Shown in pieces: positions 15,385 through 64,000 of a DNA stretch of 64,000 nucleotides. A model generated the notes under the pieces. It made no database searches and was not told the DNA's origin. It worked only from the letters and a program-made list of their open reading frames with translations. A program made the position numbers and the translations under genes. This DNA is from Eunapius fragilis. Taxonomy: Eukaryota; Porifera; Demospongiae; Spongillida; Spongillidae. The DNA is taken from assembly GCA_963681505.1 (NCBI GenBank), contig OY811975.1, forward strand, positions 10,304,230 to 10,368,229, given 5' to 3'. How positions within the stretch are numbered: position 1 is the stretch's first letter; each line of letters begins with the position of its first letter.

Positions 15385-15793
15385 GTTGCCGAAATAGTGC
15401 TTCATGTGGCTTCTTTTTGCCTGACTGACTTGGATCACGTTTAGCTTCTCAGCTGCGTCTTTATTCCGAATCACCTAACTCTAACGCAATTTCTCAGTAT
15501 AACTCTTGTAAGGGTAAATGTATAATGATCTTAATAATGTCTTGTAATATAATGATAGTATTAACGGAAAGCCAGTTTGCACGGGCGCCGGAGCCGGGGG
15601 GGCAGGTCCGGCAATTGCCGGACCAATATTTAAAAAAAATATTATTATTATTAAAATTCAACACAAAGTTAAAGAGGTAATGTTGAATAAAAAACGCAGT
15701 ATACATACATGTGTATGTACGCGCACGCATAACTTATCGCTACGTGTACATCAATGCCGCCAGTTAATTAAATTACTGTAACTAAACACACCA

Positions 15794-18019
15794 ATGGATC
15801 AGCACCTGTCGTCATCGCTACCATCGTCCTCTTCGTCTAAGCCCACTGGCTTATCGATTGCATCGATGCCAGAGAAATTTCACCCCCCGAAGTCTTTACT
15901 TTTACCCAAGCGTGCCTTTGGATCGAAGGGCCAGATGCGCTCGTTTCGAGCCGAATGGTGTGAAAAATACAGCTGGCTCCATTACGATAATTCTACTGAT
16001 GCAGCATACTGCTACATATGTATGAAGGCAGAGCACGGAAATAAGTTTTTGGCAAGTACCAAACGCGACCCAGCTTTCATAAGCAAAGGCTTCAAAAACT
16101 GGAAAGATGCCACCATCGCGTTTAACACACATCTCAGAAGTGACTGCCATAAGGAAGGGTGCGAAATTCTGGAGCTATGCAGTACAACTAGTGATGTTGC
16201 TGAGAATTTGAGCAAAATGTACAAGGAAGAGAATGAGCTAAACAGGATGATGCTCATTAAAATTTTACAGAATGTTCGATTTCTTGCACGTCAGGGTTTG
16301 TCATTAAGGGGACACAAAGACGGTGAAGACAGCAACTTCACACAGCTGTTGCTTTTAAGAAGCATTGGTTGTCCTGAAGTGCTCACTTGGATGAAGAAAA
16401 AAACCAACAAGTATACCTCTGGTGATATTCAGAATGAATTTCTTCAAGTTATGGCCTTGCACATTTTGCGTAACATCTGCTCAGATATCGTCAAGAATGG
16501 TTTCTATACTATCATGGCTGATGAGTGTACTGATGTATCTAATAAAGAGCAGTTTGTGATCTGCATACGCTGGGTTGACAACACCACTTTGATAGATCAT
16601 GAAGACTGTGTTGGTTTGTATGGTGTCGATACAATTGATTCCAATACACTGATGCAGAGCATTGAAGACGTTCTACTGCGCATGGGTTTACTACTGTCAC
16701 AGTGTCGTGGTCAATGCTACGATGGTGCATCCAACATGGCAGGGTGTAAAAATGATGTTGCAACCCAAATACAAGCTAAGGAGAAGAAAGCTATTTTGAC
16801 CCATTGCTATGGGCATGCTCTTAACCTTGCTGTGAGTGATTGCATAAAACAATCAAAACTTTGCCAAGATGCTATGGATTCTGCCTTTGAAATAAGCAAG
16901 TTGATTAGGTATTCACCTAAACGGAATGCTGCCTTTGATCGCATCAGAGTGGAAAATGCCACAGATGATGATAGTGCTGTGCACAGTGTAGGCATTCGAG
17001 CACTGTGCCCTACTAGGTGGACAGTTAGAGGAGATGCTATTGAAAGCATACTTGAACACTACATCACACTAAAGCAGCTATGGGAAGAGTGTCTTGAGAC
17101 AAGGCTTGACCCGGATATCAAAGGCAGAATAATTGGTGTCCAGGCACAGATGGATACTTTCAATCTTTTGTTTGGCCTTCATCTCAGTATGAAGATTCTT
17201 AAAATCACTGATAACTTGAGCCGAACCCTACAAACCAGGTCAATGTCTGCATCTGAAGGGCAATCAGTGGCTGAGTTGTCTGTAAAAACACTTCAGTTAA
17301 TGCGAAATGATGAATCGTTTGATGCATTCTTCAGATTGGTGAACTGCTTCCGTGAGCAAACGGGTACAAGTTCTCCCAAACTACCCCGTAAGAGAAAAGT
17401 TCCTAGTCGCTTTGAAGTTGGAGAGGGAAAAGAATCGTACTATGATAGTAGTATTGAGGATCATTATAGACGACTGTATTTTGAGGTACTGGATTTAGCA
17501 GTTGCAGGGATATCACAGCGGTTCAACCAACCTGGCTACACCATCTATAAGAATCTTGAAAACTTGCTGGTTTATGCAGCCAACCGAAAACCATTTGATG
17601 AACAACTTTGTGCAGTACTTAATCACTACGGTGATGATCTTGCCTCTTGTCAACTCTCTGGCCAGCTACAGATTTTGGGGGCCTATTTTGCAGAGCATTG
17701 TGAGCCAGTGTCTCTGCGTGATTGCATTCAAGCACTACAGAAAATGTCAGCCACACAGAAAGAATTGCTTAGTGAAGTGTGCAAATTGGCGCGACTGATT
17801 CTTGTAATGCCTGCAACGAATGCTTCTAGTGAACGCAGCTTTTCTTCAATGAGACGCTTGAAGACATACTTGCGGAATACTATGTGTCAAAGCAGACTAA
17901 ACCATGTAATGTTGTTAAACATTCATCAGGAGAAGCTAGACGCTTTATCGATGGATGATATTGCCGAGGAATTCATTCAAGGAAATGATCATCGGCTTCG
18001 GATTTTTGGACGCATCTGA
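15794..18019 (+). CDS. hAT transposase with N-terminal TTF/BED-like zinc finger
   Basis: A 741-residue intronless ORF with no stop or frameshift. After a Ser-rich start (residues 4-20) there is a TTF-type finger-like region (about 50-125: WCEKYSWLHY, CYIC, HLRSDCH). The RNase-H-like core follows: first Asp in MADECTDVSNKEQF (near residue 240), second Asp in QCYDGASNMAG (near 308), then CYGHALNL, the C/DxxH motif of hAT. The C-terminal hATC dimerisation region (about 640-725) includes PATNASSERSFSSMRRLK with the third catalytic Glu. The length and all key residues fit an active enzyme. It cuts and re-inserts the element carrying it. The ATG is in CCAATGG context. Confidence 0.92.
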   Translation: MDQHLSSSLPSSSSSKPTGLSIASMPEKFHPPKSLLLPKRAFGSKGQMRSFRAEWCEKYSWLHYDNSTDAAYCYICMKAEHGNKFLASTKRDPAFISKGFKNWKDATIAFNTHLRSDCHKEGCEILELCSTTSDVAENLSKMYKEENELNRMMLIKILQNVRFLARQGLSLRGHKDGEDSNFTQLLLLRSIGCPEVLTWMKKKTNKYTSGDIQNEFLQVMALHILRNICSDIVKNGFYTIMADECTDVSNKEQFVICIRWVDNTTLIDHEDCVGLYGVDTIDSNTLMQSIEDVLLRMGLLLSQCRGQCYDGASNMAGCKNDVATQIQAKEKKAILTHCYGHALNLAVSDCIKQSKLCQDAMDSAFEISKLIRYSPKRNAAFDRIRVENATDDDSAVHSVGIRALCPTRWTVRGDAIESILEHYITLKQLWEECLETRLDPDIKGRIIGVQAQMDTFNLLFGLHLSMKILKITDNLSRTLQTRSMSASEGQSVAELSVKTLQLMRNDESFDAFFRLVNCFREQTGTSSPKLPRKRKVPSRFEVGEGKESYYDSSIEDHYRRLYFEVLDLAVAGISQRFNQPGYTIYKNLENLLVYAANRKPFDEQLCAVLNHYGDDLASCQLSGQLQILGAYFAEHCEPVSLRDCIQALQKMSATQKELLSEVCKLARLILVMPATNASSERSFSSMRRLKTYLRNTMCQSRLNHVMLLNIHQEKLDALSMDDIAEEFIQGNDHRLRIFGRI

Positions 18020-26466: not shown

Positions 26467-28433
26467 TCAATGGCCTTGTGCAATCCAAGTGGTCAGCTCT
26501 TCTGATAGCCTGACTTCACCAACACTAGCTGTCCTCAAATCACCAATGATAGTTCTCCAGGTGTAAGGAGGTGACCCACTTCTCTTCCACAAACCAAACA
26601 TTTCAGTAAATGCTCTGTGGTAGTCCACAAAGCTTTGGTGGAGTGGACATATTGTCTGAATCTGAGTTGGTGTGAGGCCAAGTTGAAGTCTTCCTATCTC
26701 ATTCTTGTGAGGGATAACAGCTGCCACTTTGTCCATCAGGTGTCATAATGATGGTTCACTGTCCATGGACAAAGGAACTGTATAGAGATGGAACAGGTGA
26801 TGATGAATTAATCTACAACACACGTTGCCAACCTGATTGACTGGAAGCTTGTTTTATGGCAGTGCTCTCACCCAACCTAATAACATGGTACTGTGGTTGA
26901 CCACTATAGTCAATAAACAGGACCCACTTCACATCAAACTGTTTTTTCATCCATGTTTCTATTAGAAAGAAAGTGAGAATAAAGTAACCTGCATTGCTAG
27001 ATCCCACTATCCTTTACCAGACTGTTGAATCAGCTCATCTGCAGTTCTGCTCTGTTGGATGGTGGTAGCATTGGTGATGTTGACATCAGCAGGTATGAGG
27101 TCAGGGTGACTGTGTGCATTATGTCATCATGGGGAGAGTGCTAATCATACACAAGGGTCCATCATATTTTGCAATCTTAAAATAGCCCAATCTGCCTGAA
27201 AACGACTTTGGCCAGCTAAGTGAGTGCATGTACAAATATACTTATGTACATGCACAGATACTTAACTAATCTATGAACATATTATTAAAATGTGTGTACT
27301 TTTTTGCTTAGAATGTAGCCAGACCTATTACTTTGTAGTGATGCACATTTCAAATCAACATGTCTTATCTTTAACAGTAATCCCCAATACCCTCTGACTG
27401 ACTCCATTAACCAGCAAGAGTTTTTCTACTGACAACTGAAGTGTATCTGCATAGGAGCACTCAAATGGCATGTCTCCAAGCCAATGCCACTTCTGATCAG
27501 TATTTGAAAAGGCATAGATGGCAGAGGTCTTCTTTTCACCAGCTCCTCCTCCCCCTATGGCTAGAAGTACATCATCAACCATGCATATAGATGAGCCAGA
27601 GTATGGAACATCTGGAAGCTTCCTCCAGGCAGAAGGCTGACAGGTGTGTGTTGAAGCTTGCGGAATGGTACATAGTTGTATATATGCGTGTTTGTGTGTG
27701 CAACATATGAGTGTGAGTGTATGCAGACACCTAAGTAGCTGTTTAGGGTGGATTCACTGCAGGTCTATTACAACATGCAGAGTTCAGATCATTTACATTG
27801 CATGCAGCTATACATACACAATGGTCAGACTCACCAGGTCACTGACATTTAAGCACCAAACAGCTGTGCCCATTCCCCATCCTCCCATCACAAAGACCAC
27901 CCCTCCATGGACCACCGCAAACATGGCTCCACATTGCTGAGGAAGTGGTGGCCCAAGTGCCAGGTCTGTGTGTTACTATAAAACACCTGAACATCATTTA
28001 AATGCCTCCCAACATCACACCATCCTCCCGTAACAACCAGACCACCTTCATTGACACTAACTACACAGGAAAACTCACACCCTAGTAGCATCTCAGACAT
28101 GGTGGTCCATTTTCCTTCTTTCCATACCATCACCTTTTTACTACACACGCCATCCTTCAAACCACCTACAGCTAATAAATACATCGCCTTTCTACACACA
28201 CTATCCTTCGAATTGCTTATCGCTACTAAACCCACGCCTAGCCTGGCACCTACATCAACATCGTCAATGCATTTCTTCCAATTATTCATTCTGGTCAACC
28301 TGTAAACAGCCTTACCTCGTCCCCAAACCACTGTACCCTCCTCCCCCACCTCCACCAGACCTCCTCCATATTCGCTTCTATCACCTTGCTCAGGTACTTT
28401 AGAACAGGTTTCAAATTGCAATGTCAAATTCAT
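26467..28433 (-). pseudogene. Broken kelch-Death domain gene (left copy)
   Basis: The exon layout mirrors the intact copy at 45674-48095: 27835-28433, 27369-27636, 26833-26958 and 26467-26777. Exon sizes are 599, 268, 126 and 311 against 603, 268, 126 and 311. Three lesions are visible. One T is missing in exon 1 (CACTTGGG for CACTTTGGG, near 27968), shifting the frame before the last kelch strand. The donor of exon 2 is AT instead of GT (27368). A TGA replaces the codon after SL at the start of the Death-domain exon (near 26745). Any one of these would stop a normal product. AATAAA lies at 26384-26389 (minus strand). Confidence 0.8.
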
Positions 28434-45673: not shown

Positions 45674-48095
<2,422 letters not shown>

Positions 48096-49598: not shown

Positions 49599-52500
49599 CT
49601 ACGATTGTGTACACAAGTTTGGTCGATTTAGTGTAACATCAAGTCCGCCCTTTTCAAAATTATTAGCACGCTTAAACTGAAGACCCAGCAGTGCACATTT
49701 CTTACGTTGCCAGGATACATCAGTTTGGTCATATCTAAGATATGGCCATGAAGTTTCTATCTCAGCACGCGACACCTGTACGTTATCCACACAGATATCT
49801 ATTGTATCACTATGGGTAAGAGGTAAACTCTCTGGCTGAGGTATGCTGTCAATTATGGCGCAGTAAGCTTATGCTTGCCTTTCCCAGCTCAGTAACCTCA
49901 GACAGGTTAATACTTGGAATGTCACTTCTAAACAGTTTTCTTAATCTGTTTACTTCTTCAAAACATTTCCTACTAACTTTGATTGACTTGGGATCATATG
50001 CTAGTAAGTGTAGGCCATGCAGCTAGTGTTCTTACTCGTGATAAAGCAACGTAGGTCATACCCGCTCATTGCAAATACGTTACTTGATAGGTCTACTATG
50101 GCACAGTCTAGTGATAAGCCTTGACATTTATTTATGGTTACAGCAAATGCCAGTATCACTGGGAATTGTTTTCTGTACACATAGAAACGATGTAGTATTT
50201 GAAACTTACCATGTACCCTTTCAATTTTAAAATGTGTATCAGTGCTGTGGTCAAATGTGACATGGATGCAATCCTTTCCAATTGATTTTATAGTACCAAG
50301 TGCACCATTAACCAGCCCTTTACTAGATTGTGTCTTAACATGACCCTGATACCCACAGCCAGTTTTAACTTGGCCTCTAAACCAGCAGTCATGTTGCAAT
50401 CTTTGTTTAGTCTATCCAATTCACCTGATGCTCTTTTGGTCCACTTGACAGTTCCACTAGAGGTCTCTTCATTCTCATCTATGCAACGCATGACAACTAC
50501 CTCCGAACCGACCCTGGACAGCATGTCTCCATTGAATTGGTCACACAACTTTCGTGTTGCAGACACACGGGGGCTAGACCACGGCCCATAAGTTCACTAA
50601 ATTTTTCAATGGCTGTGCATTTAATGACAGAATTTTGAAAAAGAGCTATACTTTTGTCAGTAATACGATCTACCCTGACCTCATTTAACAATTGGCCATA
50701 TCCTGGGTCACGCTTCTGTCGCTCATTGATGGTTAATTCGTCATAAACTACGGTTTCCCTCCAAATGTTTGCTGAAGTCCTGCAGCTCAGCCTAGCAGCA
50801 ATTACTTTGTTGTGTATATTCTGGAAAACCATCGAACCATTAACTGGTGGGAGTTGTAGCATATCTCCTAAAAATAGAACATTCATTGACCCAAACCATT
50901 GGTCACCCCCAAACAATTAAGCAAGTGTGAGGCTTGATAGCATGCTAACCTCATCGATAACAATCAGTTGAACATGTCTGAAATCATTTCGCATTATTTT
51001 TAGAGACCTATTAGGAAGGGGCCAATAGGTTGACATTTTAGAATCATGTTCTATTGGCAACTGGAATAGCCTATGAACGGTTACACCATTTATGTTACAT
51101 GCAGCCAAACCTGTGGGTGCAGCTAGTGCACACCTAATGGAATCTTTGTTATCCTTCCATAGTTCATAAATTACCATGGCACGAATGGTATGAATTAGAA
51201 AGGACTTTCCTGTACCACCTACACCACTAACAAACATGTGAAGAGGGCTATGTTTAGTACACAAGAACACTCCCCGTCTTCATGACGTTTTTGGTGTGAA
51301 AGATGGTCAATAACATTCTTGAAGATTCGCAATTGATCTGAATTTAGCATTGAAATACAATCATCAATAGTGTCAGTTCCTGACTTGCACTCATTGAGGT
51401 GAAACACATCTTCGAAAGTAGACGTGGCTTCACCTTAGAAAAATGCATCTTCCTCTGCAGATGGTCGTACAGGGGGTTCTTGTTCCTGCCTGGCTTCGTT
51501 AATTTTTTTCACTGCAGTTTGTGCTTTCAGTAATGTCTGCAGCTTGCCATGGTGCTCTGACAGATTGTAATTAGCCCTAATGAGGCAGTTAAATGCACCC
51601 TCAGCTGTCTCCCCCTCTGCTACTATTTAAAATCACTCTCATTTAGAAATGGAATGAATAAAAGCATCAGAGAATAGTAATAGTCCTCTCTCTGGTTTTC
51701 ATTGGAAGGATCAAACAGTTTATGGTTTGGTAAATGCAGTTTATTAAACCTTTTATATAGTCTAGAGCCATTGGCACTGGTTCCACTATACTCATACCAC
51801 TGTACAAAGTCATACAAGCATATGTCTTCTAACTCGTTTGGCCTGCTAGGGTAAAATACATCGACCATACTACTCTCTAAATTATCTGTGGAACCAGGGT
51901 TGCTCTTTTCAATGTCTACAAGCTTTGCATGACTTTTTATCCTACATTTACGCTTATGGGGCATGGCCACATCAACCCATTTCACTGTTGCTGACTTTTC
52001 AGTCAGGTGGTCACCAAGCAATAGATCACTGGCTTCATCAAGTCCACACTCCCTGGAATGCAAGGACCTGACACCAAATGACCATAGCTTGCTATATATG
52101 GAACTATTAGAATTAACCTCTTTCCATACCTCCTGCATACAGCTCTTTTCTGCCTTGGTCACGTAACCTGTTACATAATGAGTGAGAGTCAATGAAGATT
52201 CAGCCATCCATATTGGCTTTCCACAGCAGAAGCAATAATGGATTGTAGTCATTGACTCAACACTCTAATGTGGAATGAGGAAGCTGACAGATTTTCTTCC
52301 TTGACTTAAGACAATCCTCTACAGGGTTTAGGATGGCACATTCAGTACTCTCGCGGGGAAAGCCAAATCTACACTTCGTAATGTATGCACTTTTAAGCCT
52401 TTGCCTGCGTTTACAGTAGTTAGTACAATTGTGCATTTGGTATTTAGTAACCAATGCATGGAGTTCAGGATTGAGACCTGCATCAGGGATCCTGCAGGTC

Positions 52501-53589
52501 ACACGTTCTTGAACCCATGCAAGAACCTGTTTAGGATCACTGATACCAATCACAGGTGCTCCTTCAATCCATAGAAGGACATGATAATGTGGAGCCCCCC
52601 ACATTTGGTACTCTTTCTTCCACAAGAAGTGCTCGACCACCCCAAGCACAGATCCTTTTAATATGGCTGTGTTGAACAGGTCATGAAAATTTGACGAAAA
52701 CTTTCTTGACACTAAAATAGGATCTTCAGTGCAGAGCCTTGATATTGGATAGCTATCGGAATGGTCGTTATTAACCTTCTTAAGATATCTAGCGATGTGC
52801 ACGTTATCATACTCTGCGCAGCTGAAAGTCAAAAATAGTGTCTTGTACAGGTGATGTGTGCTGATCCAATGAACGTATTGTGTACGATTGGAAAGCAGCT
52901 AAGTCAACATCAGAGGCCTTTTCTAACATTGTGCTGGAAGGTTTCTCAACAACCTCTACTACTTTTTTTGATACATCGTCCAGTGATGCATCATCTACAT
53001 TTTTGTACAACCAATTTATTTCTATGAGTTATCGTATGGCTTCCTTTATTGCATTTACATCAACTAACGTTTGCCACACAATTTTGTTTTTAGTCGGAAC
53101 CCCATTCACAATAATAAACAATTGTGGGTCAGGCAATGCAACAACTCCATCAGGTTGAACCTCGGACAGGGTATCAAGTGTGTGATTAAGCGGCAGTGGA
53201 AGAAAAAACATGCAGCCCTTGCAAGCCTGTAGAGCATTAAATGCTGGCACTTTACTAGAATATGTATCCAACCGCACAATAGTCTGAAATGCTTTTGCTG
53301 TCTGAATTAATTTGCTGTTTGCTGAGAACATCGAGTGACTTGAGCTCAACTGGGACTGATAAACACACGTGAAGGATAGCATTTTTATTATTAAGAAATG
53401 GCCTGCAATGCTGACAAATATACAGTAGAATTGTTTTCCACTATGTGAGTTGAGTCTAACCCACGCATCAGTGTTGTATTTGTCAAGACTAAAGTTAACT
53501 AGGGACACTTGCTTGCGTTGGCAGAGGCGTTCACAGCTACAACAAGCAAACTCAGCATCATCAGTGAATTTTTTTTTGCAACTCTGCAA
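49599..53589 (-). pseudogene. Helitron Rep-helicase gene, broken
   Basis: Read downward from 53589 the pieces follow the order of a Helitron protein. First is a Cys-rich start (CCSCERLCQRKQV) with a LPDPQLFIIVNG block. Next comes the Rep domain with the HUH motif in GAPHYHVLLWIE (near 52590), followed by Cys/His residues. The PIF1-type helicase has Walker A GVGGTGKS (near 51210) and Walker B LIVIDEVSML (near 50950), then FLGDMLQLPPV, and a late helicase motif (VTINKCQGLSLD, near 50130). At least one in-frame stop (near 53025) and several frameshifts (near 52810, 52255 and 51420) disrupt it, so it cannot make a full protein. It abuts the end of inverted repeat B. Confidence 0.8.
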
Positions 53590-54734: not shown

Positions 54735-57700
54735 TTATATCTTTGTGAGGAAGTCTACTTTCAAATTTGGAGGCAGGTTGATCTCCTGAAAATTAACATT
54801 CACTGAGGTGATGGGAAGGGTGACAGGGTACATGTGGAGAAGGTTAACCATCAGCCTGATGTAACCACTATGTCTGCCAACCATCAACGCTACATCATTC
54901 AATACAGTGTCTGGCACAGAAGCTCCAAGGTCATTGACATACTGGGTTAGAATTTTATGGATCTACAGTAAAGGAAAGAGGGAGGGAGAGGGAGGAAGAG
55001 GGAGGGGTGTGAGAGGGAGAGAGGGAGGAGTGAGAGGGAGGGAGGGAAGGAGAGGGAGTGAGAGGACAGGAGGGAGTGAGGGGAGGGAGAGGGAGGGAGA
55101 GAGATGATCATTTAATAGACCACTTCAATACTAGTACAGTCTTTATACCTATGACTCAAATAATTCATCCACACTTCTGGCCTTTTATCTCCCATCTTCC
55201 CCTCATCACCCCTCCACCCATGTCATTCTCGTCCCCAATCCATACCTGTTTTGGGTTAAGTGAGGGGCAGATGCGCATAACCGCCTTGGCATCAGTCTTG
55301 TTCATCTGAAGTAGCTTACATGTCTGATACACAGGACTGATCTCAGCTAACACACCACTCTCTGCCAGTCCTCGTATCCTACACCATTCCTCCAACTGGC
55401 TGAGGTTAATGCTGATATAAGGAACATATCAACCACTGGTGCTGGAGACGTGTTAAACATGTGACAGACCTGATCTGACGGCCATATTTCCAATGACACA
55501 TCTCCCTCCTCAGCATAATGGTGTTGAGCATGTGCCCATTGATGTAGTAAAAGAGCTGGGGAGGAGGGAATATGTAAGACTGGGGAGGAGGGAATATGTA
55601 AGACTGGGGAGGAGGGAATATGTAAGACTGGGGAGGAGGAATATGTAAGACTGGGGAGGAGCGTATATCAACATGAACATATACAGACATTACGTTAACA
55701 CACGCACACACACATACACACATACATACATACACACAAGGATACCTGTTTTAACACCTGCACTACAAGGCTGTGGTCTACATGTGCATGTTCCAATGTG
55801 CCAACAATCTCCTCCAGTGTGTTCACCAAATCCATGACAGTCATCTTGGGGACATTGGTCTTCCCCTTGGTGTTCCCCATCATGCTGCCAACAGTACCCA
55901 TCTGAAGGCCTTCATACTCCAGCATACAGGGAACTGTATTGGGGAGCCAGACCATGTCCATGATCACATGTATTAACTACAAGTAATAAAAACATTCTCT
56001 ATACGAGAAGGTTGGTGGTATATAGGAATCAAAGGTGATGGTGGTGTAATAAGCAAGGGAACAAGGTTTCTGAATTGAAAAGGAAGAATGAAATAGACCT
56101 ATACTAGCAACATGTTGTCATATTTAAATGTGCGTGCTAATATAGGTCTATTTCATTTTTCCTTTTCAATCAGAAACCTTGTTCCCTTGCTTTTTACACC
56201 ACCATCCTATATACCACCAACCTTCTCGTATAGAGAATGTTTTTATTACTTGTTTCCTAAATTTGGTATTATATTTAGTTCTTGATACATATAGACCCAG
56301 GTAGCAAAAACGTCAACTTGTGTGATCATGACAGATTCTGCAATTTTGATGAGGTGTACCATTATACTAGTCCCCAGCCTACCTCCATTGAGGACCAAAG
56401 GGTGATAAAGGTTAGCAAAAGCGAAGCCATATAATACATAGGATTAATGCACCGTAAGTAAACTGATCTCACGCTATTATCAGATAAACCATGCACCGCA
56501 ATACATTACCAAATTGACGTAAGCAACTTTGGCAGTGCATACTATACTATAAAGCGGAGAGAGACGCAGTATCTACCGCTGTAACTACAGAAACTATTCC
56601 TTCCATTTTAGCAATATACCATGCATGCTCATCATTTATGGATCCAACATTTATTGATGCTGTAACGTACCTTTAGGTTGGTCCTTTCGGTACGCGCTTG
56701 ACATGCACACGTTTGGCAGATCTGGCAGCATCTGCATGGATCTTTCCACATTTAGATGCTCAAATTGTCCTTGAGATTGCATGGTAAAATTAAAACCATC
56801 GAATTTGATAACGCTGGTTAATTTATACCGGTGCGTCATGACCATTGTGATAGCTGATGTAATGTGCTATTTGTAGATCAACACCAAATAAGGAACTACA
56901 CAACCAAAAATTTAAACATTGTTACAGGATGTAAGCACCGATCGAACGGTATTGGCACGGTCCCGAAAACAGGACCGTCCCAATACCGTTCGGTGCTTAC
57001 ATCCTGTAACAATGTTTAAATTTTTGGTTGTGTACTCGCTTTATTTAATTGCCCGATCGGTTAGGCGTCTAACAGACACCCGAAGATAACCTGCGGACGC
57101 GTCCTGAAGCGATTGGTACACTTGGCGTGCTTTACAAACGTTCCTGTCGTGAGTTATACTATCCCGAAGGAAGAATAAGAATAAGAAGAAGCCGACGGAG
57201 GAGAAATTTTAGGTGGGACTGGGTACGGACGATGGGACGAGTATTTTTGTTCTCTGTAAGTAAACCGTCTTATGACACAGATACAGCGCAGAGATGTTCT
57301 CCTTTTTGATATCGCTCGATTGCCACATTGCCACTAAGAGCGAAGTGACCCGATTCTTAAATGTCCCGCTAGACGTGAGTGGCGTTTTTATAATGACATT
57401 CATGTACTGCAGGATTCCTATATGGAACCTACTCGCGTAGGTTCCGATGTCCATGATCCCATTATTAACCATGTCCATGATCACATGTATTAACATGTTT
57501 GTGATCACATGTATTAATCATGTCCATGATCACATGTATTAACCATGTCCATGATCACATGTATTAACCAGTATAGATACTAAAAAATAATACAATACAC
57601 AACATACACTTAGACTAAATATATATATATAGTTGCATTGAAATGAACACTTTTGGAAAATAATAAAACCACATCGGTGAGGAAAATGAGGAGGCCAGCT

Positions 57701-60700
57701 CCTTCATCCATGCCATGTCCACTTCTCCATTTTACCCTGGATCCACACAAGCAAAGGTTTGTTGCACGTAAAATGGCAAAAGCCATTCTGGCACGAACCC
57801 ATCCCATTACTTCAGAATTTGACTTCTCCCACTTCACTGATCGTAATTTGGTCACACAGGCACTTCATCAGGTGTTGTGCATCATGACCCAAGACCTCCA
57901 TCTACAGAGACTACAAAAGGTGTAAATGAAGCACGTCTTTCTTCAACAGCTGCTGAGTACTTTCTTTTCTTTTCCTGTTCTGCTGAACATAGCACAGCAT
58001 CAACAGTGTGATTAGCATAAGACTGGGCGTCAGTGTCTACGACATGAACATCTAACAATGCCGCAGTTTGTGGCTGCCACACTCCTCGTATGCTGAGGTC
58101 AGCAATTAAAGCTGGTCTACCATTGGAATCATCTGCTTCCTGTACAATGGGTTCTCTTACAACATCTTTGTACACAATGGCTGCCAAATCACCTAGAGCA
58201 TCTCGCACGTCATTATGGCGCCAGGTAACAAGGCCACCTTTATTACAATCAAGAGCATGTTGGAAGCTGAATTCTTCTCCACATCCATCACAATGCATTG
58301 GCGTTTTAAGAAGAGGCCAATGGTAACGTAGTGAACGTGCATCTCTAAACTCAACAGGAGAGAGGTCAAAATGGTGGCAAGCAATCGGCATAACAGTAAG
58401 CCATGCAGATGTTTTTCCATCAATTGAACGCTGGACTGCACGTCTCGTATCATTACCCAAAGAAACCGGCACTGACTCACACTCCATTGTTTGCACCATA
58501 GCAAGTTCCTTGTGTTTCTCGGTTTTGACCGATCTGATGTGTGCATTGTAACTACTTACCTCAAAATCAGCATTGTTTTTAATGGCATCCACAACCATGT
58601 GTGTACATGCCGTTGATGTAATGTATGCTACGTTTGCTAATTCCACCGGGTCAACAATGCCCATACCTCCCAAACAAGTGGGTAGAGATAACAGATGCTG
58701 CTCAGAATTAGAAATTTGTCCACCACAAACTGAAGGCCAGAATTTCTTGTTTATGACATCACGTAAGGGAGCAAATGAGGTGCCAAAGTTCGGTAGTACT
58801 CTTTGCAAATAGGACCACTCAAATTGCAAAGATTATAAGAGAGCAGCATAAGCAGCTTGTGGTTGTGATTATGCAGCAGTGGATAGTTTTTCCACAGAAG
58901 TCACCCATGTCTGTACATAATGCTTTGTCCCCTCTGGATCCCCAATGAAGCCACCCAGGTACCGCTGACCTCTGACAACCTTCACTCCTATGTCACCAAA
59001 ACAAGCATTGGCCACTGCTTCATCAAGTTCATCAACTACCACCACAGTTTTCTGTGGTTCTGGATAGTACCCATAGGCTGGACCAAGTTCGCAAAGATTT
59101 TCAAACCACTCATGCAGCTTTGGAAGTTTTGCAGCACAATCTGAGTCATCTGCATACCAACATTGAGACCAGTTGGTCAGATCTGCTAGTGAAGCAATGA
59201 GTGATGTCAGTGCTGCTGCATACATCAGCATGGATAGAGGGTCGCCTTGGCTAACCCCTTCCTTGCTCAAGATGGACTCAGAACTTCCCTGTGTAGACAA
59301 GGGAGGCATAGCCAAGGTAAGTGTTGAATAGGAATCTGGAGCACCGTGGCCATTGAACTCTCACATTCCATAAAGCCGCTGCTCTATTCAAGGAATTGAA
59401 GGCATTTTGGCATCTACACACAAGTAAGATACCCCAACAGCTACCCCGATTGTCTTCAAAAAGCTCTCTGATGTCATGAACAGCCCCTTAATACCTGCTT
59501 CTAGCCCAGAACAAAGCTGACTAACTCCACATAATTCTGCCACATCACTGCCTGTTGCAAAGGCAAGAGCTTTGCAAACAATTCGTCGCAGTTCTTCGCC
59601 AATAGCAATTGGTCGTACCCCAGGACATTTATCAAGGGTTATGAGTCGGCTTGATATCAATGCCCTAATATGGGACCACTCTACGATGTTGGTTGCAAGG
59701 TGTCTAGCAAGAGCAGCAACTTCACCGCGCAATTGTGCACTGTGTGATCCATACCTCAAAAGATAGTCCTGCCACTGCACTGGAACCTCCAGGACCAGCA
59801 CCACCTTGGATACACCTTGCCACATGCTCTATATGTGAACCAGTCACATCAACGTCAGTAAATGGAGGAAGGTGATGGCATGGCAGAAAAGCTTGCGTAC
59901 CAGAATTTGCAGGGTCAGGGTATTTTTCACGAAGCACATCAAGGACACGTTTGGAGCCATCATTGACTAACTGAGAGGGATCCAGTACTCCACCATCATT
60001 CATCCTTTCTGTCAACCAGCTCACAGCTGATCTAACCTGTCCTCTAAGCATCAAATGAGAAAAGACTTGAACTATATGATTGGGGCAGGGTTGTTTAATT
60101 CTAAATCTAGCCCATTTCTTGGCACATCTTTCAAATTCAAACAGAAGTGCATCATAAAGCTCAAGCCTCCACATTTCTATGCGTCGTTTCAGTAGTCTAC
60201 GTATATCAGTTCCTTTGACGACCATCGTGTCCCGTTGTAGAATGACCCCAAGTAAGACAATCAACCTCTCTGATATGAAGGAACCATCGCTTAATAATGC
60301 AACCTCATCGGATAGCAGAGTTACAAATTCGCGCCTTACAGACCCACATGGCAAATTGTAATGCCCGCTTCTGACAGCAACAATTCGCGGATCACATGTA
60401 TTAATCATGTCCATGATCACATGTATTAACATGTTCGTGATCACATGTATTAACCCATGTCCATGATCACATGTATTAACCATGTCCATGATCACATGTA
60501 TTAATCATGTCCATGATCACATGTATTAATCATGTCCATGATCACATGTATTAACCATGTCCATGATCACATGTATTAACCATGTCCATGATCACATGTA
60601 TTAACCATGTCCATGATCACATGTATTAACCATGTCCATGATCACATGTATTAACCATGTCCATGATCACATGTATTAGCCATGTCCATAATCTCATGTA

Positions 60701-63700
60701 TTAACCATGTCCATGATCACATGTATTCACACCCACTCACCAATCAATGGCTTGATCCATTTCTGGGACAGCCTTATAATCAGGTTGTAGATATCAATAG
60801 CCAGGTCATTAAGTTGATGGTGGTATTGTGTTAGGTTAAAGTCTTTCAAATGCTTCATGACGATTTTTAGCTGGAGGTGGAGTGAATAGTTTAGCATGGT
60901 AGGTCATTATATGAAGTGATTAAAAGGCATGGTGATTTTGAGTGCTGATGTTACGAATATTGATTACAAGTAGTGATCAAACCCCTCACCTGGTTGTCCC
61001 CTGTGCGCTGCCTAAGATGGAGGGATAGAGCTGTTGTGTTGGCCAACCAGAAGGCCAACATCTGTGGGTTCTTCTGATGTAGCTGGGAACAGAACATGGA
61101 CCACTGCCATATAAAGAACCTTAGACACACCCCACCATCACACTCCGCCATCCTCACACTCCCAATCTCCACATACCTCACACTACACATATCTCCTCAT
61201 ATAAACCACATCATTCACACTCACTTGGGAGACTTGCTTAATTCCCTTGATTACTTCCTGGATGAACCCAGTGGTCATTTCCTTCTTATGGCAGTGATCT
61301 GGATAACGCAGGCACATGAAGATCATGTGAGCCACTATGCAGGGGGTGTAGCCTTCAACCTGATCTGGCTTCATGTCCATCACCAGAGTGTTGAGCAGAA
61401 GTTGGAGATCTTTGTCCAGCCATGAGAGGATACCTAGGTAGGGGGACTTGGTGGTTGAGGATAACTAGGTTGAGAGACTTGGTGGTTAACTATGAGTGCC
61501 TGGGGAAGTCTATTACCATGGTAACACCGCTATATATTTATGAACAAAAAAAACTACTCTTTCTAGCTATGGAAATGTGAGTACCATGGGAGGCATGTGG
61601 TGGGAGATCAGGTTTGAACTCTAATGTCAAAGTGGCTTAACTCTGCAGGTAGCCTTCAGATACAAGCAATCAGTACAAGCTACCAGATAGAACATAGTTA
61701 CACAGAACAAATACATATGAACAATAAACCCTTTACATTAAACATTAACATACACACACACGCACACACACATGCACGCACACACATGCACCCATGCACA
61801 CACAAAAACACACACACTCACAGACACATATGCACACACACAAGTACTCACACACACACATATGCACACACATACTCACACACACATACACACACATGCA
61901 CACACAAGCACACACATACATTGTACGAAATTACGAACTGACTATCGCAAAGGAACTCAATCGAACACATTCTTTTCAATCACGTGATTACATTACATAA
62001 TCATTTATAACAGTTTCAACACGCATACATAGGCGTAGGAACAGCCTTAATAGGGGGGAGGGGGGGGGGCCAAGTCATATTATTCATTGAATTTCACCTT
62101 ACATGGTATCACCTATCACCATGTACGGTGAAAATCGATGAATAATATGACAGTTGGCTCACTATTAAGGCTGTTTCTACACCTATGAGTCATACGCACA
62201 CACACTCACACACACTCACACACACTCACATACACACACACTCACACACATGCACATACACACATGCACACACACACACACATACACACACACACTCACA
62301 ACACACACATGCACACACACACACTCACACACACATACCAGACCCTGAATATACATCACTAACCACGCGGTTATCTTACCATTGATAGGAGATGTACTTT
62401 GTGTTACTTGGTTACTGGTGATGTCATCTAAGCTGAACCCTGTTGGTGTGATCACAAGTGCACTAATTAGAGATGTTACATTAAAAAAATGGCTTACATA
62501 TCAGGAATTTAGCTGGCATTTGCAGCACTCACCTTTCTTGTCTGCTAACTGCTGGGCACAGCGATTTTCACCCACAGCTACAAGAGCTCTGGCTAGTTTC
62601 CCGTATGTAGCATCAATGTCTTGAGCCAGCCATGTGGATAACATTTCAATCCTTGCACCATTCAGATCTCGAGGATGGTTGTGTACAATAGTGCACAATG
62701 TTGAGTCTTCAAGGTCCAACTCCAAGCCAACGCCACGCCAATTGGAAAATTGCAGTAAATGGATATCCGTCAGTTTTGGTATACCATTCTCCACATCTGG
62801 TCTGCCATTCTCCACCACTGGTCTACCATTCTCCACCTCTGGTCTACCATTCTCCACCTCTGGTCTATAATTCTCCACCTCTGGTCTACCATTCTCTACC
62901 TCCAGGATAATGCCAGGGGTGCCTATGGGGTCAAATTTAATTTATTAACATGCATAGCATTTTCAAAGATGTGAAGGCAGTCCTATAAAAGCCACATCTA
63001 TATTTTCTGTCCTATGTATCTGTTGTTATTATTATTTTCATCAGATAATGCACAGCAGTGAGCTCTGATACCTTCAGTGACTTGGTGAGACAAGGCTATC
63101 TCTTCAGCAACAGAGTCACTGTTCCCTCCAGCAGGATGGGCAATGGCCTTCACCAGTGTGTGCCACCTTGGCTCCATGAAGTAGTCAAACTTGTCAGTGT
63201 CTTCACCAATCCACCACCTCATGATTTTGCTCATCTGACCTGAAGGCACACCCTTCAGGTCCTCCAGGTGTGAAACCTTCACACCAATGAAGGTTCCAAA
63301 GTCATACCATGTCTGCCCCATGGAGCTAGTGACCCTGTCCACACCTTCAAGGTCATCTGGCCCTGAGGGAGAGGGAAGGATGGTGTTGAACAAATGGCCC
63401 AGTTGTGGTAAAAAACCTCACAAGAACATGTTTAGTGGGCAGTATGAGCTCATTCATGGACACATGTGATGGCTACACTTAGAGATGGTACTTACCAATT
63501 GTTGTTATGGCGATGGACTCAAAGTTCCTCACTGTAAAAACGTAGGGTGTGATGGAATAAATGGTACCACCTCCTCCCCAGACCCAGACCTACCATTCCA
63601 ACTTTTCTTCATGTCACTGATCACATTCAGGCTATCCTTTGAAGCCACACATTTACGTCCTTCACATACTGTGAGGTCATATCCATATTTGGCAACAAAT

Positions 63701-64000
63701 AATTTTAATAGATTAATGTGTCCATAAAAGTATGCATGATGCAAAATGGTCTGACCATTGTAGTCCTTTGTGTTGATGTCACAGTGAAACTCATTGATCA
63801 ATACCTCCACACACTCCACACTACCACCTAGACCAGCACATGTGAAGGGTGTGTCACCATCTGAATCACGAGCATTGAGGTCACAGCTGTACTTGGTGAC
63901 CAGCAGTCTCACCAGGGAGGTGCGGCCATTGTAACAAGCATGATGCAGTATAGTTCTACCATAGGCGCCTTTTGTGTTGATGTCACAGTGAAACTCATTG
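54735..64000 (-). CDS. Ankyrin-Death-Death-DIL protein (myosin-V-type cargo-binding tail), 5' end outside window
   Basis: Eleven visible exons on the minus strand: >63594, 63072-63362, 62533-62922, 62380-62439, 61225-61433, 60990-61082, 60741-60870, 55746-55933, 55470-55555, 55246-55411 and 54735-54962. All borders are GT/AG and every phase matches (1,1,1,1,0,0,1,0,2,0), for about 748 residues plus TAA. Exon 1 encodes ankyrin repeats (GRTILHHACYNG, DGDTPFTCAGLGG). Exon 2 is a Death-like domain (TWYDFGTFIGVKVSHLEDL). Exon 3 has RPEVENG repeats and a second Death domain (LHLLQF..W, RGVGLELDLED). The remaining exons give a full DIL/globular tail: IVAHMIFMCLRYPDH, FWLANTT, VPCMLEYEG, MLRREMCHWKYG, LSQLEEWCRIRGL, PVTLPITSV. 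No motor or IQ region is seen. Its cargo or partner is unknown. Confidence 0.78.
54966..55105. repeat. Purine-rich (GGGAGA)n tract in the last intron
   Basis: GA-rich imperfect repeat on the plus strand, which is a pyrimidine tract in the transcript, starting a few bases upstream of the last exon's acceptor. Confidence 0.85.
55556..55665 (-). repeat. 24-bp repeat made of tandem 3' splice sites
   Basis: Four to five units of AGTCTTACATATTCCCTCCTCCCC on the minus strand directly before the exon 55470-55555. Each unit ends in a pyrimidine run plus CAG, so it is a complete acceptor. The 24-bp period keeps the frame: use of an upstream unit would add SYIFPPPQ per unit with no stop. Confidence 0.75.
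55979..56253. mobile_element. Complete fold-back MITE
   Basis: A 275-bp near-perfect palindrome with ends ACAAGTAATAAAAACATTC on both sides. It lies in the large intron, next to one unit of the 25-bp minisatellite. Partial relatives occur at 6990, 10140, 11690, 13190 and 19857. Confidence 0.85.
56254..57440. other. Intronic region with repeats, no gene seen
   Basis: Part of the 4.8-kb intron. Contains the hairpin element at 56897-57034 and, near 57200-57330, a dispersed repeat also seen at 5920-6050, 11185-11310 and (in part) 20942. Confidence 0.5.
56899..57032. mobile_element. Hairpin MITE with TA ends
   Basis: Two arms of about 65 bp, CACAACCAAAAATTTAAACA and its complement, close around a tiny loop. 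TA flanks each side, as for Tc1/mariner-type MITEs. Confidence 0.7.
57443..57572. repeat. 25-bp minisatellite, lower part
   Basis: About five units of CATGTCCATGATCACATGTATTAAC with variants. It lies below the retrotransposon, and the main part lies above it at 60389-60730. Confidence 0.85.
57610..60390 (-). pseudogene. Endonuclease-type non-LTR retrotransposon, copy 2
   Basis: Read downward it has an N-terminal segment (59722-60390), RT blocks (PGVRPIAIGEELRR, near 59600; GVSQGDP and the active-site WYADDSD near 59150-59250), a thumb (GQRYLGGFIGDPEG), a Cys/His-RHN block (CDGCGEEFSFQHALDCNKGG), a restriction-like nuclease (ADLSIRGVWQ, EKKRKY) and a conserved tail (VMGWVRARMAFAILRATN). Frameshifts near 59770 and 59350 and two in-frame TAA codons near 58830-58870, where copy 1 has Glu, make it inactive. 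It lies within a minisatellite in the DIL intron, same strand as the gene. Confidence 0.75.
60389..60730. repeat. 25-bp minisatellite, upper part
   Basis: About 13 units of CATGTCCATGATCACATGTATTAAC, ending ten bases before the donor of exon 60741-60870. Confidence 0.9.
61752..61920. repeat. (CA)n-rich tract
   Basis: Imperfect CACACA/CATGCA array in the intron 61434-62379. Confidence 0.9.
62027..62190. mobile_element. Fold-back MITE in intron 61434-62379
   Basis: Ends ATAGGCGTAGGAACAGCC and (reverse complement) ATAGGTGTAGAAACAGCC, with arms meeting near 62105. The left arm has a G-run at 62056-62069. Confidence 0.65.
62192..62335. repeat. (CA)n-rich tract
   Basis: CA/CT dinucleotide array just downstream of the small exon 62380-62439. 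Confidence 0.9.
62782..62905 (-). repeat. Coding 21-bp minisatellite in the Death-domain exon
   Basis: Six units of GGTAGACCAGAGGTGGAGAA (plus one base) encode RPEVENG heptads (variants RPEVENY, RPVVENG, RPDVENG) ahead of the second Death domain. It keeps the frame. Confidence 0.85.

Follow-up and report, generated by a model that had tools for sequence, protein, structure and literature searches.

Ankyrin repeats and Death-like domains joined to a myosin V tail in a predicted motorless gene family of the sponge Eunapius fragilis

We analyzed a stretch of 64,000 nucleotides from the sponge Eunapius fragilis (assembly GCA_963681505.1, contig OY811975.1, positions 10,304,230 to 10,368,229; hereafter the window) and describe on its minus strand a predicted gene of 12 exons with AG/GT borders that reads, in order, ankyrin repeats (Ank), a first Death-like domain (Death 1), a second Death domain (Death 2), a linker and a complete myosin V globular tail. 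The predicted protein of ~1007 residues is motorless. It combines the cargo-holding tail of a transport motor with recognition and Death-signaling domains of a type that serves in immunity and cell death. This Ank-Death-Death-tail arrangement is that of a gene family and no chance join, with 13 loci repeating the order, and its tail appears to derive from the myosin V of the same lineage. We hold the architecture and the origin of the fusion gene, taken jointly, with high confidence. The original prediction of a motorless Ank-Death-Death-tail gene is upheld to the extent that such a gene is predicted, is found repeatedly in the genome and has a constrained Death 2 and tail; that the protein would connect Death signaling with cargo or vesicles is deduced from its domains. 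The domains are known singly and their combination appears to be new. Specifically, in the open-licence literature, as judged by title or abstract start, we found no description of an Ank-Death-DIL architecture, and the accessible part of a myosin survey covering sponges (PMC3942036) mentions no such gene.

Gene model and gene family

The original prediction had joined eleven minus-strand exons in phase through GT/AG borders. These borders and joins hold, and within the window the eleven exons form an uninterrupted reading frame of 748 codons that ends with a stop at 54735; what had been overlooked is a microexon of 36 bases (63496..63531, phase 1-1, VRNFESIAITTI), the addition of which brings the model to its 12 exons and ~1007 residues. 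The microexon has AG/GT borders in the window, and 9/9 other copies that were read have a counterpart with the same borders (0-6 mismatches in eight of them, 14 in the C19 copy). Exon 1, which codes for ankyrin repeats, is an open frame in the window (63594..64000, donor GTAGGT) and runs past the window edge. The start codon that had been sought upstream of 64000 is an ATG at window coordinate 64740 (locus L009), 740 bases outside, with an in-frame stop directly upstream of it. Downstream of the microexon follow the Death 1 exon (63072..63362, phase 1 in and out) and an exon (62533..62922) that begins with a 7-residue repeat of the EVENGRP type, read in translation as six head-to-tail units at 62777..62902, and then codes for Death 2. 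The number of EVENGRP-type units differs between paralogs, as seen from spacer matches in the other copies. The linker exon (62380..62439) has 60 bases, coding for 20 residues, and is phase 1-1 with intron places and phases that are identical in 9/9 other copies; in agreement with what had been claimed, both this exon and the first tail exon begin after phase 1.

The tail is coded by seven exons of the model, with exon 1 at 61225..61433 (18 matches in the genome), exon 2 at 60990..61082, exon 3 at 60741..60870, exon 4 at 55746..55933, exons 5 and 6 at 55470..55555 and 55246..55411, both inside the Pfam DIL match, and exon 7 with the stop codon at 54735..54962. Tail exons 3 and 4 are separated by a 4.8-kb intron (55934..60740). 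Our own protein-to-genome aligner gave the identical ten introns, which is a consistency check and no independent proof since the query was the model's own 995-residue protein. Small extra introns that the aligner put in the Ank and spacer parts track differences in repeat number and were hence discounted.

Two introns of the gene have features of their own. The 4.8-kb intron contains a degenerate reverse-transcriptase element flanked on both sides by a 'gtgatcatggacatgg' minisatellite (RVT_1 E 0.0019 at 58869-59360, under the family cut-off), and the intron at this place in the nearest paralog is likewise long (3.9 kb). At 61434-61530, and at the same place in several copies, the 3' end of the intron that precedes tail exon 1 consists of tandem copies of its own acceptor and the first bases of that exon.

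Pfam scans of the model returned DIL (5e-30), Ank_2 (2.4e-29) and, for the second Death domain, Death (2.3e-8; 34.5 bits vs a cut-off of 22.6), while the whole of exon 1 gave Ank_2 at 2.9e-74 and, above cut-off, solely ankyrin-type matches. From the linker onward the protein matched the myosin-Vb tail best among PDB chains (residues 15-385 of 386, E 9.7e-62), and its PDB matches are solved myosin V tails across almost the full length. With the DIL match, this agrees with the earlier claim of a complete DIL/globular tail. The Pfam scans of the model and exon 1 contained no IQ family, no NACHT or NB-ARC and no FHA, RA or PDZ, and those of the window gene no ZU5, kinase or Rel domain. A sub-cut-off match of the tail to HOOK_N (0.014) was disregarded, and an Afadin-type DIL was rejected because the PDB matches are myosin tails and because the tail tree described below joins the tail to the genome's own myosin V.

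Two Death-like domains had been claimed, and Death 2 stands by Pfam, whereas Death 1 is Death-like through profile comparison only. Specifically, three other loci supplied six Death-like domains whose profile matched Death 1 at 89% in hhalign (E 2.1e-6), and under our own settings the match scored 34 vs at most 17 in 100 column shuffles; 2/6 of those Death-like domains match Pfam Death themselves (best 6e-6). We treat Death 1 as Death-like, and not as a proven Death domain. Several other comparisons were left unused. Death 2 matched the Death-like set at 69% by the tool, yet not above shuffles under our own settings, and Death 2 alone found the RIPK1 and FADD Death domains in PDB weakly (best 0.058) and ranked below unrelated chains. 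Against PDB, neither the Death 1 profile nor that of the Death-like set rose above chance level (hemoglobins best at 0.051; alpha-actinin 0.94).

A genome search with Death 1 gave 70 matches at E <=0.01. Of the 27 with at least 61% identity we used 26, a split copy being represented by only one of its two fragments. The 43 matches at <=36% identity were excluded. At 13 of the 26 loci, the window included, Death 1, Death 2, the tail start and DIL follow in order on a single strand, at distances within 8, 22 and 25 kb and with no second Death 1 in between. The other matches that entered this comparison were 19/35 for Death 2, all 18 for the first tail exon and one for each of 19 DIL places (36 matches). 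Note that C5:551k and C5:681k, both among the 13, score equally throughout and may be mutual duplicates, and that one further locus fails the order by the absence of a Death 2 match alone.

The window copy and nine others were read in detail, aligned fully or partly, with four further loci that show the order or come close to it (C5:471k, C5:584k, C5:681k and C19:1.229M) standing outside this set. A linker exon with phase-1 introns on both flanks and Ank repeats upstream of Death 1 are present in 10/10 copies, and diverged loci on three contigs share the order, the linker and the linker phases. This recurrence, and the lack of any in-frame stop between the Ank-Death part and the tail part of the window gene, argue against the possibility that two adjoining genes, or an error of assembly or splicing, have been read as one gene. 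The 0.95-kb intron between linker and tail, which is rich in simple repeats, would favor such an artefact, which we regard as very improbable.

The damaged copy at C5:9.55M (L017 6527-9172, L018 880-939) has five linker-exon matches that are apparently tandem duplicates. The 43 remoter Death-1-like matches (24-36% identity), many of which are clustered on C2:15.4-17.1 Mb and others of which lie on C6, C20 and elsewhere, point to a larger domain repertoire. There is also a further DIL match in the genome at C11:4171353.

Selection was analyzed by comparing the window gene with its nearest paralog, C5:10.614M. The ratio of nonsynonymous to synonymous differences per site (pN/pS) is 0.47 for the tail (p 0.0027), whose values against two remoter copies are 0.49 and 0.52 (p 3.7e-5 and 7.9e-6). 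For Death 2 the ratio to the nearest paralog is 0.32 (p 0.0019). These values indicate that Death 2 and the tail of the window gene are under purifying selection. In the close pair C5:235k/C5:301k the tail ratio is 0.65 (p 0.24) and no part reaches p 0.05. The median ratio of nonsynonymous to synonymous substitution rates (dN/dS, taken where dS is above zero) over all copies, damaged ones included, is 0.51 for the tail (55 pairs, myosin V included) and, with 45 pairs each, 0.34 for Death 2, 0.62 for Death 1 and 0.42 for Ank. By these ratios the genes of the family are constrained yet fast-evolving.

The same ratios bear on the possibility that the tail is a passenger, with the Ank-Death part being the active one and the tail merely stabilizing it or being lost. 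Such a role is favored by lesions in 4/10 copies, by three tail places on C5 that have no Death 1 match upstream and by one paralog that has a kinase in the tail's place. The constraint on the window tail, which is evident against three paralogs although not in the C5:235k/C5:301k pair, speaks against it, and we consider a passenger tail rather unlikely.

Origin of the tail

The true myosin V of this genome has its heads at C4:850-856 kb and its tail at 860-865 kb, which is the only motor-adjoining tail among the myosin-head matches listed (65 of 96 candidates were scored in this search). No myosin head near the window gene is among these matches, the closest one listed being on C5 at 6.21 Mb and the gene being at 10.36 Mb. 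The case that had been set to refute the prediction, a set of motor exons spliced to 61433 from elsewhere, is unsupported, with the closest listed head ~4 Mb off and the motor-adjoining tail on another contig.

The introns of the myosin V tail lie at model residues 699, 730, 773, 836, 864 and 920. Five of these six introns match in both place and phase in 10/10 Ank-Death-Death-tail copies. The first tail intron matches in 8/10, and in the other two copies it is aligned one residue off and in a different phase. In a tail tree of 14 rows, three of them from other animals, a 97/94 branch sets the ten copies apart, their neighbor is the genome's own myosin V, and the vertebrate Va, Vb and Vc lie past a 100/100 branch. 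The tails of the copies are 56-71% identical to that of this myosin V, from which they have a synonymous divergence of 0.7 to 1.0. The shared intron places and phases together with the tail tree argue for a single genomic capture within the lineage. Specifically, they indicate that genomic DNA of the lineage's own myosin V gene, and not a retroposed copy, supplied the tail on one occasion, and that duplication followed. Because the donor myosin V is still present, the steps of the capture can be ordered and tested, and the family offers a clean case of a signaling gene that captured the cargo domain of a motor and was then multiplied.

A candidate splice acceptor in the window matches former myosin V coding sequence at 17/24 bases, a value equaled by 0.003 of C-rich controls ending in AG. 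In the same comparison with eight other copies, the deepest-branching one has 9/24 matching bases and the remaining seven have 8 to 16. We offer it as a suggestion that the new acceptor was made out of old myosin V coding sequence. Elsewhere on the donor contig, ~42 kb from the true myosin V, there is a partial inverted second copy of the myosin V tail end (C4:906.9-907.9 kb, L024), with no Death 1 match nearby.

Several known systems share parts of this architecture. Class V myosins (Va, Vb, Vc) have a complete globular tail as the window gene does, and the introns of the latter are shared with the genome's own myosin V; however, the myosins have a motor and IQ motifs, none of which were found in the window gene, where Ank and Death stand in their place. 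Afadin/Canoe, RADIL and Rasip likewise carry a DIL-type domain in a non-motor protein, but they combine it with FHA, RA or PDZ, which the window gene lacks by Pfam, and the window gene's tail is of the myosin V type. Ankyrins, DAPK and NF-kappaB p100/p105 have ankyrin repeats together with a Death domain. The window gene differs from these in having no ZU5, kinase or Rel by Pfam and a myosin tail instead. Fungi have motorless proteins with Ank and DIL, which are not known to carry Death domains. Since the tail of the window gene groups with the genome's own myosin V, its Ank-DIL join is likely independent of the fungal one. Finally, the accessible part of PMC11378527 presents brown algal ROCO genes as candidate immune receptors that arose from exon shuffling; they resemble the window family in being exon-shuffled, but they have other domains and belong to another lineage.

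Front end, binding sites and possible function

The same front end is also followed by other tails. At C5:386-391 kb an Ank exon, the microexon (0 mismatches, AG/GT borders), Death 1 and an EVENGRP exon precede protein kinase exons (Pkinase 1.5e-19 with the exons joined by eye). The Death 1 exon and the EVENGRP exon each have phase-1 splice sites available at both ends, and a further one precedes the first kinase exon, so that a single kinase-tailed gene is possible, though unproven. The C8:3.96 Mb locus has, in order, an Ank exon, Death 1, two further Death-like exons and a P-loop module (exons read, the join being putative), and the same kinds of exon come after Death 1 at C22:1.84 and 3.34 Mb. 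For the microexon, the best match that the C8 locus offers lacks the AG and has 14 mismatches, as many as the C19 copy. The P-loop module of C8 has no match in Pfam at 0.01 or in PDB at 0.1; it looks Roc-like by motif only, an assignment that neither database backs. C5:434k and C5:518k have Death 1 without a tail match. We infer that these genes are best read as recognition proteins with shuffled outputs, of which the window type would be addressed to the myosin-V cargo machinery. A wider proposal is that of a combinatorial repertoire, in which a variable Ank and Death front end is joined through phase-1 exons to a kinase, a P-loop module or a myosin V tail, the last serving as invader bait or as a vesicle address. 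We consider this possible but put it below an even chance. If true, it would link Death-domain signaling with myosin-V transport, a link undescribed in the open-licence literature searched.

The ankyrin array alternates two repeat types, and we analyzed 42 repeats (36 distinct) of one of them. Five positions of this type, which by analogy with designed ankyrin proteins we take to face the ligand, have a mean entropy of 2.19 bits vs 0.63 at the remaining 30 (permutation p 9e-5, a flattering value since the five were picked after the entropy table had been viewed). The pN/pS is 1.00 at these putative surface positions; the remaining positions of those repeats give 0.32, and the other repeat type, which is nearly invariant (26 repeats of the commonest length), gives 0.52. 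The variable positions fit a diversified recognition surface. Against diversification, surface positions are the least constrained in any such repeat, and mere loss of constraint fits the pattern too. We do not claim positive selection on the Ank surface, given that a pN/pS of 1.00 fits diversification or lost constraint alike.

A variable Ank surface would also suit an integrated decoy, in which the tail mimics the cargo tail of myosin V and thereby traps an invader protein that targets myosin V transport, with the Death domains passing on the signal. The presence of many family copies on one contig, the exchangeability of tails on a common front end and the closeness of the tail to the genome's own myosin V are in line with such a role. 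However, no invader protein is implicated, and the tail is constrained, whereas a decoy would presumably be expected to diversify. A decoy thus has, in our judgement, a low probability.

The explanation that we prefer is that a captured tail on an Ank-Death module provides vesicle addressing, and we give this explanation, as a whole, about an even chance. Splicing at phase-1 introns is predicted to join the tail to an Ank-Death module that occurs with other tails too. The ankyrin array would recognize a ligand, the Death domains would recruit signaling partners via Death-Death contact, and the tail would dock on myosin-V tail partners, namely a Rab11-type GTPase and, in copies that keep the pocket, a SPIRE/melanophilin-type peptide. 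A Death signaling platform would thereby be placed on, or report on, myosin-V vesicles. This mechanism of ligand, Death partners and vesicle docking is more tentative, and we place it somewhat short of even. Overall we rank a vesicle address first, with a decoy, trans-inhibition and a passenger tail about equal behind it.

Residues of the tail allow this docking to be considered site by site. We take Q1753 of myosin-Va and the Tyr Y1714 of Vb to be Rab11-site residues. The Gln equivalent to Q1753 is present in 10/10 copies, and the Tyr equivalent to Y1714 in 6/10; at the latter position the window copy has Ile and the genome's own myosin V has Phe. All four residues of the SPIRE/melanophilin pocket (N1590, D1592, E1595, Y1596) are present in 5/10 copies. 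These positions, and those discussed below, come from the accessible parts of PMC4454200, PMC3858360, PMC6328864 and PMC5021521, as mapped onto the tail alignment, and a Q1753R mutant of myosin-Va is named in the last of these.

The motor itself is another potential partner. According to the accessible part of PMC4454200, the isolated myosin-5a tail inhibits a motor fragment, for which K1706 and K1779 are required. At these two positions of mouse myosin-5a the window copy reads R and K, as does the genome's own myosin V; the K1706 position is basic in 9/10 copies and the K1779 position is K in 8/10, with both being so in 7/10. This pattern would be in keeping with a trans-inhibitor, in which the free tail binds the myosin V head, or competes for cargo, once the Ank-Death part is engaged. 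Conversely, these residues may persist only for folding or through recent descent, and the positions of E1789 and E1791 are D and G in the window copy, the Gly at the E1791 position counting against inhibition. We regard trans-inhibition as improbable. With site residues kept and changed in this manner, the tail could meet vesicle partners, the motor, or both.

A number of results weigh against a vesicle-addressed Ank-Death-Death-tail protein. In the window copy the SPIRE/melanophilin pocket reads D, N, Q, Y, so that 3/4 residues differ from myosin V with Y alone kept, which makes a partner of this type doubtful there. Death 1 has no Pfam match, gives chance-level matches only against PDB, and in profile form does not match Death 2 (hhalign 0.7%). 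A single-sequence structure model of Death 1 has six helices at very low confidence (predicted local distance difference test score 42.8), a value for which it was discarded for fold search. Between the window gene and C5:10.614M, the pN/pS of the Ank part is 1.00 (p 0.49), indistinguishable from neutral, and that of Death 1 is 0.55 (p 0.38), the domain being too short to tell. Finally, 6/10 copies are free of stops and frameshifts in the models (three of the six being truncated at their 5' end by the limits of the stretch aligned), but C5:5.11M and C5:358k have one frameshift each, C5:235k has one stop and C5:9.55M has two. Part of the family may thus be decaying or mis-modeled.

Should the tail act as it does in myosin V, Death-domain signaling could be sent to vesicles with no motor involved. 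The family would then be the natural counterpart of the tail-only myosin V constructs that serve as laboratory inhibitors. It would also offer a way into what expanded Ank-Death families recognize.

Neighborhood of the gene

The surroundings of the gene contain several open frames of mobile-element type. Directly downstream of the window gene is a Helitron-type frame (52257-52898, minus strand; Helitron_like_N 4.2e-12), and farther away on the plus strand there is a hAT-type transposase open frame of 745 aa (15782-18019; DUF4371 1e-21, hAT dimerisation 7e-10). Upstream of the gene and on the same strand, long open frames extend over ~70700-78440 in window coordinates (L009/L010), and by motif these presumably resemble reverse transcriptase. 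Two similar kelch-type open frames, at 27888-28433 on the minus strand and at 45674-46330 on the plus strand, lie in opposite orientation ~17 kb apart. Their first residues are equal at 95/110 positions in an ungapped comparison, and the 45674-46330 frame matches Kelch_1 at 7.1e-11.

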